Positions 19,546 through 26,403 of a stretch of DNA of 64,000 bases are shown here, piece after piece. The translations under genes were made by a program, and so were the position numbers. Within the stretch, counting starts at the first letter, position 1. Every line of letters starts with the position of its first letter. Location: positions 620,001-684,000 of the forward strand of contig NZ_JBDQQR010000001.1 in the NCBI RefSeq assembly GCF_039888675.1, in the 5' to 3' direction. The notes under the pieces were generated by a model. That model saw only the letters and a list, made by a program, of their open reading frames with translations. It did not search any database and had not been told where the DNA came from. The stretch comes from Mesorhizobium sp. CAU 1732. Lineage in GTDB: Bacteria; Pseudomonadota; Alphaproteobacteria; Rhizobiales; Rhizobiaceae.

Positions 19546-19629
19546 TCAAAACCCGACTCGCAATTTCGACGGGCCGTTTTCGAGGCTGCGAGCCGGTTGC
19601 CCCATGAAGCGGGCAGAAGGGTCGGGTCC

Positions 19630-19968
19630 TTACTTGACCACGATAGCCACCGTACCCGACTGGTATCGTTTCACTTCGGAGCCGGCCTTGATGCCGGTCG
19701 CGTTGACGGCCCGCGTCGGGACCTGCCTTTTGCACTGGTCGCTCATACGGCTGGAGAGGCCGCCGTCGGAGTAACTCACGATACCGGATGAGGGCAGACG
19801 CCCCGAAATGCTTGCGAAACTCGGCGCTGCCGCGCCGCATCCGTCAGCCCTGTAGGCGGTGATATGTTTTGTCTGGCCGACGGACAGTTCGAGTGTCCTG
19901 TCCGCGCTGCCGGCGCTGACGCAACCGGCGAGTGGAACCAACACCAGGAGTGCGAGGCGATTGTACAT
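19630..19968 (-). CDS. Small lipoprotein with SDGG/two-Cys periplasmic domain
   Basis: 112 residues from the ATG at 19968, preceded by AAGGGA eight bases upstream. The longer frame to 20292 overlaps the divergent gene and is rejected. The signal peptide ends in PLAGC (lipid-modified Cys16). The rest is one domain: a VGQTKHITAY strand, Cys44, LP, then YSDGGLSSR (67-75), Cys79, PTRAVNATG and a final beta-strand (TVAIVVK). Cysteines 44 and 79 are 35 apart and SDGG starts 12 before the second. The same spacing occurs in the C-terminal domains of the two membrane proteins encoded divergently next door. I do not recognise the family; a disulfide is likely. Confidence 0.8.
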   Translation of the reverse strand: MYNRLALLVLVPLAGCVSAGSADRTLELSVGQTKHITAYRADGCGAAAPSFASISGRLPSSGIVSYSDGGLSSRMSDQCKRQVPTRAVNATGIKAGSEVKRYQSGTVAIVVK

Positions 19969-20077
19969 GTCTGGTATTCCCTTGATCGTTGCCTGCGACG
20001 AGGGCGCGATACGCCCTGATCGTGTGGCGCAGCTTGTTCGATTTTCGAGCCTCGTCTTCCGCAAAAAGAGGCTATTG

Positions 20078-20138
20078 CCGGAAACTACGGAAAAAGCCGC
20101 GATCTGATCGCTTGCCATTCCCGGAAACTGGCGGAAAA
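20078..20138. promoter_or_regulatory. Direct repeats in the divergent promoter region
   Basis: CCGGAAACT occurs at 20078-20086 and 20121-20129, 43 bases apart (about four helical turns). Each copy is followed two to three bases later by GGAAAA (20089-20094 and 20133-20138). The repeats lie between the divergent lipoprotein gene and the first of the two helix-turn-helix membrane genes and are plausible operator half-sites for them. No experiment supports this. Confidence 0.45.
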
Positions 20139-20170
20139 TACTCCCAGGTCTGTAAAGGGGAACTTGGGGC

Positions 20171-20941
20171 ATGGGCAGAGGGGGCGGGAGCGATGTCAAA
20201 GCCTGGCACGAACTGTTCGATGCGCTCTGCAACCAGCGCGGCTGGTATGACGACAAGCATCTGGCGAGCGCGTTGTGCACTCGCTTCGGCAAGACGAAGC
20301 GCCAGGATTTCGAAGCCGCGAAGAAGAAGGTGCGCGGCTGGCGGGCAGGGCGACGGCTGCCGCTGAGACGGAATCTTGCCGCGCTGGCGCAACTGCTCGA
20401 GGTGGCGCGCGATCCCGGACTGGAGCGTCAGTGGTTGGAGCTCTATCGCCGCGCGGCGGCGCCGAATGCTGCCGGGGTCGCGCCCGTCGTGTCACAAGGC
20501 GCCGATCGAAGCGGGCTTCGGATCGGCGGCGGCTGGGCACTGGCGGGCATGGCTCTCCTGCTGGGCACGGGCGTTGTCTACGCCGCCGTGGCGAACAGCA
20601 GGCAAGCCGCGCTCGCCGCCCTCCCTCAGGTGAATTTCGAGGGATATGTCCGGATACCCGTAGGCGCCAGCCATCTCATCCACGGCGCGCTGGAAAGCTG
20701 CGAGAGCGACGCGCCCGGCTGGGAGGAGGTCGTCGCCACGCTGCCCCAAACACCCTACGGCGCATTTTCCGACGGCGGCATCGCCCGGAAGGTGGTCAGG
20801 CGCTGCGGCGCGGAGAAACTGGTCAGGGGTGTGAGGTTCACCGGTGTCGCGCCGGGAACCGCGGAGCTGAGGCTGTTCGGCGACTACATCAAGGTCGACG
20901 TGGTGACGATACGGCCGGAAGCCGCAATCGAAGGGAAATGA
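20171..20941 (+). CDS. Membrane protein: HTH-like domain, TM helix, SDGG periplasmic domain
   Basis: 256 residues. Residues 10-95 form an all-helical domain (WHELFDALCNQRGW, then KKKVRGWRAGRRLPLRRNLA and LLEVARDPGLERQWLELYRRA) that looks like a Xre-type helix-turn-helix by its W-R-x-G-R-x-x-P pattern. A single membrane helix spans about 119-140. Residues 157-246 are the periplasmic domain shared with the lipoprotein at 19630-19968: Cys177, LP, SDGG at 200-203, Cys212. The order matches ToxR/CadC-like one-component membrane regulators, though the DNA-binding fold is inferred. It is in tandem with a paralogue one base downstream. Confidence 0.75.
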   Translation: MGRGGGSDVKAWHELFDALCNQRGWYDDKHLASALCTRFGKTKRQDFEAAKKKVRGWRAGRRLPLRRNLAALAQLLEVARDPGLERQWLELYRRAAAPNAAGVAPVVSQGADRSGLRIGGGWALAGMALLLGTGVVYAAVANSRQAALAALPQVNFEGYVRIPVGASHLIHGALESCESDAPGWEEVVATLPQTPYGAFSDGGIARKVVRRCGAEKLVRGVRFTGVAPGTAELRLFGDYIKVDVVTIRPEAAIEGK

Positions 20942-20942
20942 C

Positions 20943-21734
20943 GTGTCAGAACAACGCTACGACCACATCAATCGCTGGAACGTCCTTCTGGACGAACTGT
21001 GCAACCGTGCCGGCTTCGTCGATACGGCATCGCTCGCCGCCCGCTTCTGCGAACTGTCCAACAATGGCGGGCAGCGGGATTTCGACACGGCCCTGCGAAA
21101 TCTGAACAACTGGCGATCGGGCAGGCACGTGCCGCGCCTGCGCAGCCTGCGGGTGCTGGAGCAGTTGCTTGGCGTCGATGACGACCCCGAGCTGACGACG
21201 CGGTGGCATGTGCTCTACCGGCAGGCACGGGAGGCCGAGGAGGACGACGAGCCGGCAGTGACGGCAGCGGCGCAGGCGGCTGAGGGACGAGGCGGTCGCG
21301 CGTGGTTCGACATGAGAACCGCGGCAGGCGGTGCGCTGTTGTTCTGCCTCGGCGTAGGCGCCGGCGCGCTGTTCACCTCCGACTGGCGACCTTGGAGTCT
21401 GGTGCCGGCCGACGCGCCGCTCGTCGAATACTCGCCCGAGTTTCGGATCGCCGTCGGCGAAAGTCGCATCATCCATTCCGAGCGCGGCGATTGCGGCAAG
21501 CTGCCGCGCGATTGGCCGGACGTCGCCAACTCCCTGCCGGTGACGCAGACGGGCACCTTCTCCGATGGCGGCCTCGCCCGACGCAACAGCAAGTTCTGCA
21601 AGGGCGAGACGCCTGCACGCGCCATCGTCTTCACGGCGACGCAAGCGGGTGTCGAGGAGTTCCTGATCCAGGGCGACTTCTTCCGGATCACGGTAGCCGA
21701 AGCAGGCGCGCAGGCCGAGGCCGTGACGCAGTAG
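20943..21734 (+). CDS. Paralogous membrane protein: HTH-like domain, TM helix, SDGG domain
   Basis: 263 residues from a GTG one base after the previous stop, so the two genes are co-translated. Its N-terminal helical domain (WNVLLDELCNRAGF through NNWRSGRHVPRLRSLRVLE to RWHVLYRQA) lines up along its length with that of the gene before it. An acidic linker follows (EEDDEPAV), then a membrane helix at about 127-145 and the periplasmic domain: VGESRIIHSE, Cys184, SDGG at 207-210, Cys219, PARAIVFTAT. The two-Cys spacing (35) and SDGG-Cys spacing (12) equal those of both relatives. Membrane-bound regulator or sensor is the likely class; unrecognised family. Confidence 0.75.
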   Translation: MSEQRYDHINRWNVLLDELCNRAGFVDTASLAARFCELSNNGGQRDFDTALRNLNNWRSGRHVPRLRSLRVLEQLLGVDDDPELTTRWHVLYRQAREAEEDDEPAVTAAAQAAEGRGGRAWFDMRTAAGGALLFCLGVGAGALFTSDWRPWSLVPADAPLVEYSPEFRIAVGESRIIHSERGDCGKLPRDWPDVANSLPVTQTGTFSDGGLARRNSKFCKGETPARAIVFTATQAGVEEFLIQGDFFRITVAEAGAQAEAVTQ

Positions 21735-21743
21735 GCTTTGGTT

Positions 21744-24364: not shown

Positions 24365-24919
24365 ATGACCACGATACAGACAACACCGCACGATATCACG
24401 AAGCTGATCGTCCGCGTATCGCTGCGCGACCGCGCCGCATTCGACAAACTGTATCGCAACACCAGCGGGAAACTTTTCGGCGTTTGCCTCCGTGTCTTGA
24501 GCGACAGGGCCGAGGCCGAAGAGGCATTGCAAGAGGTTTACGTGAAGATCTGGACCAAGGCGGACCGTTTCGCCGTGTCGGATCTCAGCCCGATATCGTG
24601 GCTGGTGGCGATTGCCAGAAACCATTGTATCGACCGATTGCGGACGCGCCGCCAGAAGACCACGGACATCGCCGCCGCCATCGATGTGGCGGATCCGAAT
24701 CCGGGACCGGAAGCGCTCGCCGTCGCGGGCGGAGAACGAGAGCGGATTCATTCGTGCCTCGAAGAACTGGACGATGATCGTGCGGCGGCGGTGCGTGGCG
24801 CCTATCTGTCGGGTGACAGCTATGTCGATCTGGCCGAGCGCTTCTCGGTCCCGCTCAATACGATGAGAACCTGGCTGCGCCGCAGCCTGATGAAACTGAG
24901 GGAATGTCTCGAGCGATGA
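24365..24919 (+). CDS. ECF RNA polymerase sigma factor (SigK-like)
   Basis: 184 residues. Region 2 is visible at residues 17-70 (RDRAAFDKLYRNTSGKLFGV, then AEEALQEVYVKIWTKADRF) and region 4 at 125-180 (YVDLAERFSVPLNTMRTWLR). It lacks region 1 and 3, as all ECF factors do. It overlaps an RskA-type anti-sigma gene, and a secreted fasciclin gene follows, the same trio as the mycobacterial sigK-rskA-mpt70/83 locus. The likely role is an envelope or redox stress response. Confidence 0.92.
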   Translation: MTTIQTTPHDITKLIVRVSLRDRAAFDKLYRNTSGKLFGVCLRVLSDRAEAEEALQEVYVKIWTKADRFAVSDLSPISWLVAIARNHCIDRLRTRRQKTTDIAAAIDVADPNPGPEALAVAGGERERIHSCLEELDDDRAAAVRGAYLSGDSYVDLAERFSVPLNTMRTWLRRSLMKLRECLER

Positions 24920-25638
24920 ACGCGGGCAACGAAGACGAACTGGGACACGGAGGCGACGACATGCTCGCCGCCGAGTACGTCCTTGGCGTCCTGCCTGCGG
25001 ACGAAAGGCGCGAGGCGGCTGCGCGTGTCGAGCAGGATGCGGACTTCGCGCGCCTCGTCGACGGCTGGGAAGACCGGCTTTCGCCCCTCAATGAATTCTA
25101 CCCGCCGGTCGAGGCGCCTGCCGCGGTCAAGCAGCGGCTCGATGAACGGCTGTTTGCCAATCCGGCCCCTGCGACCGCGGCGACCCCGTTGGGTCGCGGT
25201 CTGGCGTTCTGGCGCGGGCTTGCGATCGTCGCGGTCGCCGGCCTGATCGCGCTCGGCGTGTGGACGGCAGCGCTGTTCCTCGAGCCGTCCGGCGTCGCGC
25301 CCGCGAACCGGCTGGTCGCTTCGCTGGCGAGCGACGAGAGCGACGTTCGTTATCTCGTGGTCTATGACGGCGATACCGGCGAAATCTCGATGTCCCACGT
25401 CGACGGCGCCCGCGCGCCCGAACGCGATTTCGAGCTTTGGGTCATCGGCGGTGACGAGGTTCTGTCGCTGGGCGTCGTCCCGGAAGGCGGGACCGTGCAT
25501 CTGCCGGTGACGCCTGAACTGCGCCGGAAGATCGCGGCCGGCGCCCAGTTCGCCATCACGCTCGAGCCTCTGGGCGGTTCGCCGACCGGGCAGGCAACCG
25601 GCCCGATCGTTGCCGCCGGCGATTTGCGCACGATCTGA
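24916..25638 (+). CDS. RskA-type anti-sigma factor
   Basis: 240 residues from the ATG at 24916, an ATGA overlap with the sigma gene; an ATG at 24904 is also possible. The N-terminal cytoplasmic sigma-binding region has LAAEYVLGVLPADERREA, a membrane helix lies at about residues 95-115 (GLAIVAVAGLIALGVWTA), and the periplasmic RskA domain has DFELWVIGGDEVLSLGVV and a C-terminal GPIVAAGDL. Such proteins hold the ECF factor at the membrane until cleaved or reduced. No zinc HxxxCxxC motif is seen. Confidence 0.9.
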   Translation: MNAGNEDELGHGGDDMLAAEYVLGVLPADERREAAARVEQDADFARLVDGWEDRLSPLNEFYPPVEAPAAVKQRLDERLFANPAPATAATPLGRGLAFWRGLAIVAVAGLIALGVWTAALFLEPSGVAPANRLVASLASDESDVRYLVVYDGDTGEISMSHVDGARAPERDFELWVIGGDEVLSLGVVPEGGTVHLPVTPELRRKIAAGAQFAITLEPLGGSPTGQATGPIVAAGDLRTI

Positions 25639-25731
25639 CGACGACCCCAACAGGATCGACCGCCAAAGCGGGCTGCACCGCAGCCCGCTGCGATGCTTTT
25701 CGTCAGCGTCCGGCGACGCAATCCACGAACA

Positions 25732-25798
25732 TTCGCCATCACTCAGTCATCAACCAAACGTGACTGCGAAACTAAATTCGCCATCAACGCGTGACTGC
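25732..25798. promoter_or_regulatory. Repeated motifs upstream of the fasciclin gene
   Basis: TTCGCCATCA occurs at 25732-25741 and 25777-25786, and CGTGACTGC at 25759-25767 and 25790-25798. In the first set CCATCA (25736-25741) is 17 bases before CGTGAC (25759-25764), a spacing that would suit an ECF -35/-10 pair; mycobacterial SigK promoters have a CCATCC-type -35. This could be the promoter that the adjacent sigma factor uses. Function is inferred from spacing and repetition. Confidence 0.35.
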
Positions 25799-25842
25799 AC
25801 CTGTCCCCACCCGAAAGGGATCAATTGAGAGGAGTTACAGGT

Positions 25843-26403
25843 ATGCGTAAGTTCACATCCACTATTCTTGCAGGCGCGGTTGCACTCAGTGTCTTCGGCG
25901 GAATTGCCTACGCCCAGGACAACCCGATGGTCGGTGGCGCGGAAATGTTCGCTGACAAGAACATCGTCGAGAACGCAGCGAACTCGGCAGACCACACGAC
26001 GCTCGTTGCCGCCGTGCAGGCCGCTGGCCTCGCGGAAACGCTCTCCGGCGCAGGCCCCTTCACCGTCTTCGCTCCGACCAACGAAGCGTTTGAAGCTCTT
26101 CCGGCCGGCACCGTCGACACGTTGCTGAAGCCTGAAAACAAGGATCAGCTCACCAAGGTCCTGACCTGTCACGTCGTTGCCGCGGACGCGATGTCCGCCG
26201 CGATCGGCAAGATGATCACCGACGATGGCGGCACGCATGCCGTCAAGACCGTCGGCGGCTGCACGTTGCAGGCAAAGATGGACGGCGACAAGATCACCCT
26301 GACCGATGAGACCGGCGGCGTCGCGAATGTGACCATCGCGGACGTGAAGCAGTCGAACGGCGTCATCCACGTCATCGACAAGGTTCTTCTGCCTGCCGGC
26401 TGA
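25843..26403 (+). CDS. Secreted fasciclin-domain protein
   Basis: 186 residues from the ATG at 25843, with GAGAGGAG eight bases upstream; a TTG at 25825 is less likely. A signal peptide ends in AYAQ. One fasciclin (FAS1) domain fills the rest: IVENAANSADHTTLVAAVQ (first box), GPFTVFAPTNEAFEALP, LTCHVVAADAM and GVIHVIDKVLLPAG (last box). Two cysteines (in LTCHVV and GGCTLQ) could form a disulfide. FAS1 proteins are adhesive or envelope-associated. Placed after an ECF sigma/RskA pair, it is a probable target of that sigma factor. Confidence 0.93.
   Translation: MRKFTSTILAGAVALSVFGGIAYAQDNPMVGGAEMFADKNIVENAANSADHTTLVAAVQAAGLAETLSGAGPFTVFAPTNEAFEALPAGTVDTLLKPENKDQLTKVLTCHVVAADAMSAAIGKMITDDGGTHAVKTVGGCTLQAKMDGDKITLTDETGGVANVTIADVKQSNGVIHVIDKVLLPAG

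Follow-up and report, generated by a model that had tools for sequence, protein, structure and literature searches.

Predicted membrane-bound transcription regulators with exchangeable exported partners in Mesorhizobium sp. CAU 1732 and other Hyphomicrobiales

Background

What connects a small lipoprotein with two membrane proteins that are encoded divergently beside it and carry the same periplasmic domain? The question is raised by three genes at 19630..21734 of a 64,000-nucleotide stretch of Mesorhizobium sp. CAU 1732 (contig NZ_JBDQQR010000001.1, positions 620,001 to 684,000; hereafter the window), in which an earlier note had seen a module of no recognised family and had proposed a signal relay in the style of ToxR and CadC. 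Five computed lines of evidence, namely the shared domain, a predicted fold, a conserved operator-like motif, co-occurrence and signs of partner exchange, lead us to regard the two membrane proteins as probably a pair of membrane-bound one-component transcription regulators, with exchangeable exported partners and a predicted operator in the shared intergenic region.

Module layout and the shared domain

Open frames are present for all three genes. The lipoprotein gene (19630..19968, minus strand; 112 amino acids, lipobox LAGC with Cys16; homology and a model with pLDDT 87) is divergent from the tandem genes for the first membrane regulator (20171..20941, plus strand; 256 amino acids; open reading frame (ORF) and homology) and the second (20943..21734, plus strand; 263 amino acids, GTG start). 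The domain common to them lies at about 19633-19896 in the lipoprotein (minus strand, by homology), at 20645..20905 in the first regulator (plus strand, profile A7) and at 21438..21698 in the second (plus strand, structure model and profile). Its two cysteines are exactly 35 residues apart in each protein (44/79, 177/212 and 184/219 in the lipoprotein, first and second regulator, respectively), SDGG starts 12 residues before the second cysteine in all three, and an R-x-V/I-x-x-T strand (RAVNAT, RGVRFT and RAIVFT, respectively) keeps the same order relative to an LP motif throughout, confirming the spacings and motif order originally reported for these sequences. With the first regulator as query against the 6 contigs (5.44 Mb) of the window's genome and an E limit of 10, only three places were found, corresponding to itself (5.1e-171), the second regulator (1.0e-35) and the lipoprotein (2.1e-4), while the lipoprotein as query returned the second and first regulators at 1.4e-7 and 1.2e-4, respectively. 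As plain sequence searches recover all three proteins, their homology is independent of the motif, and the description of the locus as three genes sharing one two-cysteine domain is borne out. Of 54 domain rows from relatives, chosen by a loose motif that already demands two cysteines, 48 had the cysteines 35 residues apart, the remaining 6 had a spacing within 33-36, and 42 had SDGG as the motif.

Predicted fold and family placement

The model of the second regulator comprises a cytoplasmic helical N-terminal domain, one membrane helix (residues 121-145; 21303..21377, plus strand) and an immunoglobulin-like (Ig-like) periplasmic domain. Together with the lipoprotein model it agrees with the single membrane helix and shared periplasmic domain read from the sequence earlier, and the lipoprotein and sensor-domain models have the same order of structural elements. 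The N-terminal domain, previously described as helix-turn-helix (HTH)-like, is predicted to form a compact five-helix HTH fold as in the XRE/Cro-CI superfamily (20967..21236, plus strand; structure model and profile), and the best structural rows for residues 9-99 were mostly XRE/Cro-CI proteins, such as DdrO, ImmR and P22 c2; absence from fold lists was not counted as evidence. In the first regulator the corresponding XRE-like domain was placed at 20198..20461 (plus strand) by profile A6, with the fold taken from the second regulator's model, and the putative membrane helix at the most hydrophobic 19-mer (20537..20593, plus strand). Two cysteines of the cytoplasmic HTH domain, Cys20 and Cys36 of protein P0003, are invariant in the 29 sequences of alignment A1, and the second is serine in loci L073, L075 and L076.

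ToxR and CadC resemble the module regulators in having a cytoplasmic N-terminal DNA-binding domain, one membrane helix and a periplasmic C-terminal sensor (a predicted topology in the module), but their DNA-binding domain is an OmpR-type winged helix. Residues 1-110 of the second regulator model contain no strand, and hence no wing; membership of the ToxR/CadC group was rejected on this fold and on the lack of a Pfam match, including to Trans_reg_C, so that the topological part of the original comparison stands and the DNA-binding fold does not. None of the three proteins matched Pfam or NCBIfam at E up to 10, nor did the first regulator, the only query used there, match PDB sequences at that threshold. 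PHROGs gave a single match (lipoprotein, E 0.39), and one of 29 relatives matched the Pfam HTH profiles weakly (HTH_3, E 0.094). The profile libraries, set beforehand as a check, therefore placed none of the proteins, in keeping with the earlier statement that no named family could be recognised. A chagasin/ICP cysteine protease inhibitor fold for the SDGG domain appeared only as one among many weak Ig-like rows and is not claimed, and a phage origin was rejected after no match at E 1e-5 was found in 50,697 phage records. Each member of the pair is thus predicted, from the models, to combine an XRE-like HTH domain, a membrane helix and an Ig-like periplasmic domain, outside the family libraries searched.

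A conserved operator-like motif

Motif discovery and pattern search identified a conserved operator-like 34-mer at 20062..20095 (plus strand), with the core CGGAAACTACGGAAAAA at 20079-20095. Across the intergenic regions between partners and regulators the consensus was nAAAATnGGGCnATTnnCGGAAAAnnCGGAAAAA, with the core CGGAAA-N3-CGGAAAA, and the motif was found between regulator and partner for five partner types. Over 23 regions it reached 549.7 nats (226-239 in six dinucleotide shuffles), and over 11 diverse regions, representing the five partner types and one region without partner, 270.2 (147.4 in the shuffles; sd 3.7, maximum 153.0, 20 shuffles). All of these regions had been selected as neighbours of the family, and the shuffles were run from fewer random starts than the real sets (15 versus 40, and 25 versus 120), which favours the real sets somewhat; the held-out test described below is free of this bias. 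When motif discovery was run at a width of 26 bases on the same 11 regions, pairwise identity was 46-69% inside the motif and 23-35% outside it, although L066 was placed elsewhere in that run. With regulator starts assumed by homology, the distance from the end of the 34-mer to the regulator start was 72-80 bases in 16 of the 22 regions with a regulator, and 60-92 in all 22.

Six held-out loci gave best scores of 11.3, 11.2, 10.5, 3.6, 0.4 and -13.1 bits, five of which exceeded the background 95th percentile of -1.3 (random 300-base stretches of the fetched loci). In these five, 108-129 bases separate the start of the 34-mer from the frame downstream of it; in the sixth, L147, the exported neighbour is convergent and downstream. 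The strict pattern CGGAAAN{3,4}CGGAAA occurred 7 times in the window's genome, compared with 2 for a backward control, and 2 of the 7 matches are in the intergenic region studied here. The other five scored from -8.9 to 4.5 bits, four lying inside called ORFs and one outside, near a contig end. A wide regulon in this genome was consequently rejected on the strict matches, the search being confined to that pattern rather than to weaker sites; further targets could still exist, given that a held-out site of plausible appearance scored only 0.4 bits.

The weak HTH scores would also be expected if the N-terminal domain had kept the HTH fold while acting as a structural or protein-binding module, the motif belonging to some other regulator. 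Membrane XRE proteins with structural roles do exist: RodZ, like the module regulators, has an XRE-type domain, one membrane helix and a periplasmic domain. Against such a role, the motif travels with the family across different partners and into five of the six held-out loci, and the strict matches elsewhere in the genome fall mostly within ORFs. The module also differs from RodZ in its patchy distribution, operator-like motif and exported partner, and no Pfam or NCBIfam match was obtained with the RodZ HTH and periplasmic profiles at E up to 10. We consider a RodZ-like role improbable, and infer that the N-terminal domain binds the motif.

A second operator-like repeat, CGGAAACTGGCGGAAA (20122..20137, plus strand), was located by pattern search and is also readable in L054-L056. 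It lies within a promoter-like site of the membrane-protein pair, TTGCCA-16-GAAAAT (20112..20139, plus strand), which was detected by consensus scan only (1 found, versus a mean of 0.1 in 50 shuffles). This position suggests that the sign of regulation on the predicted pair itself may be negative, that is, self-repression. The regulatory link to the lipoprotein proposed in the note is likely, given the motif and the co-occurrence seen across the surveyed genomes.

Exported partners of the regulators

Of the 24 named loci, 21 have a regulator, single or tandem, that is transcribed divergently from the gene of an exported protein, and six partner types were distinguished. The SDGG lipoprotein was the partner in 8 of the 21; 7 have a secreted protein that matches Big_9 weakly, below the cut-off (19.9 versus 23.6 bits), the L069 copy being broken. 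A lipoprotein of another family and a small secreted protein (L073:4491-4787, L076:4333-4635) were found in two loci each, and a PEBP-family protein (PF01161, 41.5 bits, cut-off 24; the matching NCBIfam model was below its cut-off) and a 268-amino-acid exported protein (L074) in one each. The remaining loci have either a pair beside a transferase-like gene (L060 and L070) or a truncated N-terminal domain (L077). BLAST among representatives of the first five partner types, the comparison not extending to the L074 protein, gave nothing better than E 0.37, and the shared SDGG domain is present in only one of the six types. Export was judged by a crude rule of our own instead of a signal-peptide program; it passed 20 of the 21 named partners, missing L059, whose lipobox was recognised by eye, and 30 of 313 flank ORFs, 9 of those 30 being partners. 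More exported neighbours stand beside regulators of the order survey described below (L145, L146 and L148), the similarity of L145 to one lipoprotein partner being limited to 23 residues of the signal region. In the window's genome no other partner type was found at E 0.001, two types having been searched. The small secreted proteins are 98-100-amino-acid precursors with the motif ...GPLL.GQTVVASF... and no informative family match, so far seen only beside a regulator, with no search for them made elsewhere.

Distribution and co-occurrence

Relatives are scattered within the Hyphomicrobiales. Eight of 60 genomes surveyed (the window's own included) matched the first regulator, 7 with a full regulator and one, G045, with an exported single-domain protein only. 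In a survey of the order (397 genomes, own included, with scoring limited to 13 candidates in each), 12 genomes yielded the shared domain and 7 the N-terminal domain. A scan of named genomes yielded the 24 loci mentioned above, in 22 assemblies of Aquamicrobium, Mesorhizobium, Nitratireductor, Mycoplana, Xaviernesmea, Shinella, Brucella (B. oryzae and B. gallinifaecis), Aquibium and Stappia, and a protein search using an alignment gave 132 matches. Exported proteins consisting of the shared domain alone were seen in five genomes (L053, L151-L154) in which the N-terminal domain was not found. Among 72,556 plasmid records, 2 matched at E 1e-5, the match extending over 94% of the query in one and confined to the periplasmic domain in the other; a relative without SDGG, exported and consisting of the domain alone, is carried by one Rhodobacterales plasmid (L174:3908-4288). 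The Stappia-type loci L077/L149 and L150 hold the N-terminal HTH domain only, truncated before the membrane helix.

The SDGG lipoprotein was present in 5 of the 7 genomes with a full regulator and in 0 of the 53 others (one-sided exact value 3.8e-6, relatedness ignored). In G002 and G005 the lipoprotein gene stands without regulators between the same flanking genes as the window's module, the pair being on another contig, and both lone genes keep the motif, with a score of 34.8 bits. One of the 23 regions used for training was the G002 copy; the G005 copy lay outside that set but is near-identical, and neither was among the 11. These genes (L044:6453-6791 and L047:6549-6887) offer a natural test of regulation in trans. 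A second partner type occurred in 3 of the 60 genomes, each time beside a singleton regulator. The one full-strength match to the Big_9-like partner came from G015, where it adjoins its pair; two other genomes matched weakly. In the window the module occupies the interval between EamA-like and argB-like genes (19546-21743; these names, like the transferase-like one above, were given by reading rather than by search). Markers near the ends of these two genes are about 1 kb apart in G001 and G003, and 88-144 bases apart in G006, G007 and G015, a distance at which the module must be absent from it.

Patchy distribution, an exchangeable exported partner and a repressor-like HTH domain are features that a toxin-antitoxin-like unit might also display, in which the exported protein would harm the envelope and the regulator pair would silence its gene. 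The unlinked lipoprotein genes of G002 and G005 argue against such a unit, as do the lack of any PADLOC match at E up to 1 for seven proteins and the identity of one partner as a PEBP-family protein, which to our knowledge is not a known toxin type; we regard this explanation as very improbable.

Signs of partner exchange

A tree of the shared domain was computed from 54 rows and 91 columns; with so few columns many forks are weak. Rows that the motif missed, such as the first regulators of L058 and L059, are omitted, as are L069, L070, L072 and L074. Tandem-pair regulators fall in two clades (100/99 and 93/84), and the lipoproteins share a single clade (100/100) with a long stem (1.62 changes per column). 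The regulators of G035 group with those of Rhizobiaceae loci having the Big_9-like partner (100/97 and 100/99), whereas the G035 lipoprotein clusters with the ones from the window and LC103 (100/88); L057 has a Big_9-like partner, yet its regulators fall among lipoprotein-associated ones, on weaker forks. These discordant groupings indicate that partners have probably been swapped between regulators, or regulators between partners.

The tree also bears on the suggestion, made in the note, that the lipoprotein competes with, binds or senses for the sensor domains. As a free copy of the sensor domain it could tune the signal by binding, in the periplasm, either the sensors or the ligand that they recognise. 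Such homotypic feedback would fit the identity of the domain and the order of its structural elements in both proteins, the single well-supported lipoprotein clade, and the fact that no lipoprotein was found without a regulator in the 60 genomes. The long stem, however, means that the lipoprotein is not a recent copy of its sensors, and the same regulator family stands beside partners lacking the domain, so feedback cannot be the family's general mechanism; the G035 regulators, grouping with loci that have another partner, further weaken competition or sensing by the lipoprotein as the core mechanism. The family does not need lipoprotein feedback. For the lipoprotein version competition with the sensor is possible, and feedback of this kind seems to us the less probable account of the module.

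Proposed mechanism

Under the preferred reading of the pair as membrane-bound regulators, the Ig-like periplasmic domain with its cysteine pair, putatively a disulfide, would serve as input, for a signal, a ligand or a redox state. The signal would travel via the single membrane helix to the cytoplasmic XRE-like domain and change the occupancy of the direct-repeat operator, such that the divergent exported protein is made when needed; the two tandem regulators suggest a heterodimer on the direct repeat. The regulators would control the divergent gene and probably themselves, and the exported protein would be an exchangeable output, here a lipoprotein of the sensor's own domain and elsewhere another protein. 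More speculatively, and with a probability that we put as low, the module could be a Hyphomicrobiales envelope-response cassette in which the regulator reads a periplasmic attack or ligand and, through a single conserved operator, releases expression of the small exported binding or inhibitor protein that happens to be encoded beside it, sensor and effector being copies of the same binding domain in the lipoprotein version. If this were true, a cell with that version would detect a molecule by the very fold that it uses to neutralise that molecule.

Relation to known systems

In BlaR1 and RsgI the sensor domain is related to exported proteins that the system induces, BlaR1 being a protease-coupled receptor and RsgI an anti-sigma factor. 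The module differs from both in that the DNA-binding domain would be on the sensor's own chain and only one partner type shares the sensor domain. DdrO, ImmR and P22 c2 resemble the module in the predicted fold and in an operator-like motif between divergent genes, but the module regulators are predicted to be membrane-anchored with a periplasmic domain and have no profile-level sequence match to them. VtrA/VtrC and ToxR/ToxS, described in PMC9214523 as fast-evolving cassettes, likewise place the gene of a periplasmic partner next to that of a membrane regulator. In those systems the partner gene comes directly after the regulator gene within one operon and the two products form a pair, whereas in the module the partner gene is divergent, its product is exported or lipid-anchored and may belong to any of several families, and the operon neighbour is a second regulator.

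According to a survey of transmembrane transcription regulators (PMC10269533), HTH domains are the commonest in that group, so a membrane-bound HTH protein is not new as such. The survey found its proteins through Pfam models; the present family passes none and was probably missed. No description of the family was found in the titles, abstracts and passages of the literature searched, which mostly excluded subscription papers. What is new is the regulator family, its operator-like motif and the probable exchange of exported partners, the topology being already known. Membrane-bound one-component regulators would thereby gain a family unseen by the profile libraries searched, and with a predicted operator in hand its targets are directly testable. 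Swapping of exported partners next to a single type of operator would show, as a natural experiment, how regulators acquire new outputs, and several partners with no assigned function would gain a common context as exported, regulated and envelope-related proteins.

Elsewhere in the window, at 24365-26403, ORFs resembling an ECF sigma factor, an anti-sigma factor and an exported fasciclin-like protein, so named from the translated sequence and not from a family search, would form a nearby envelope-sensing set.
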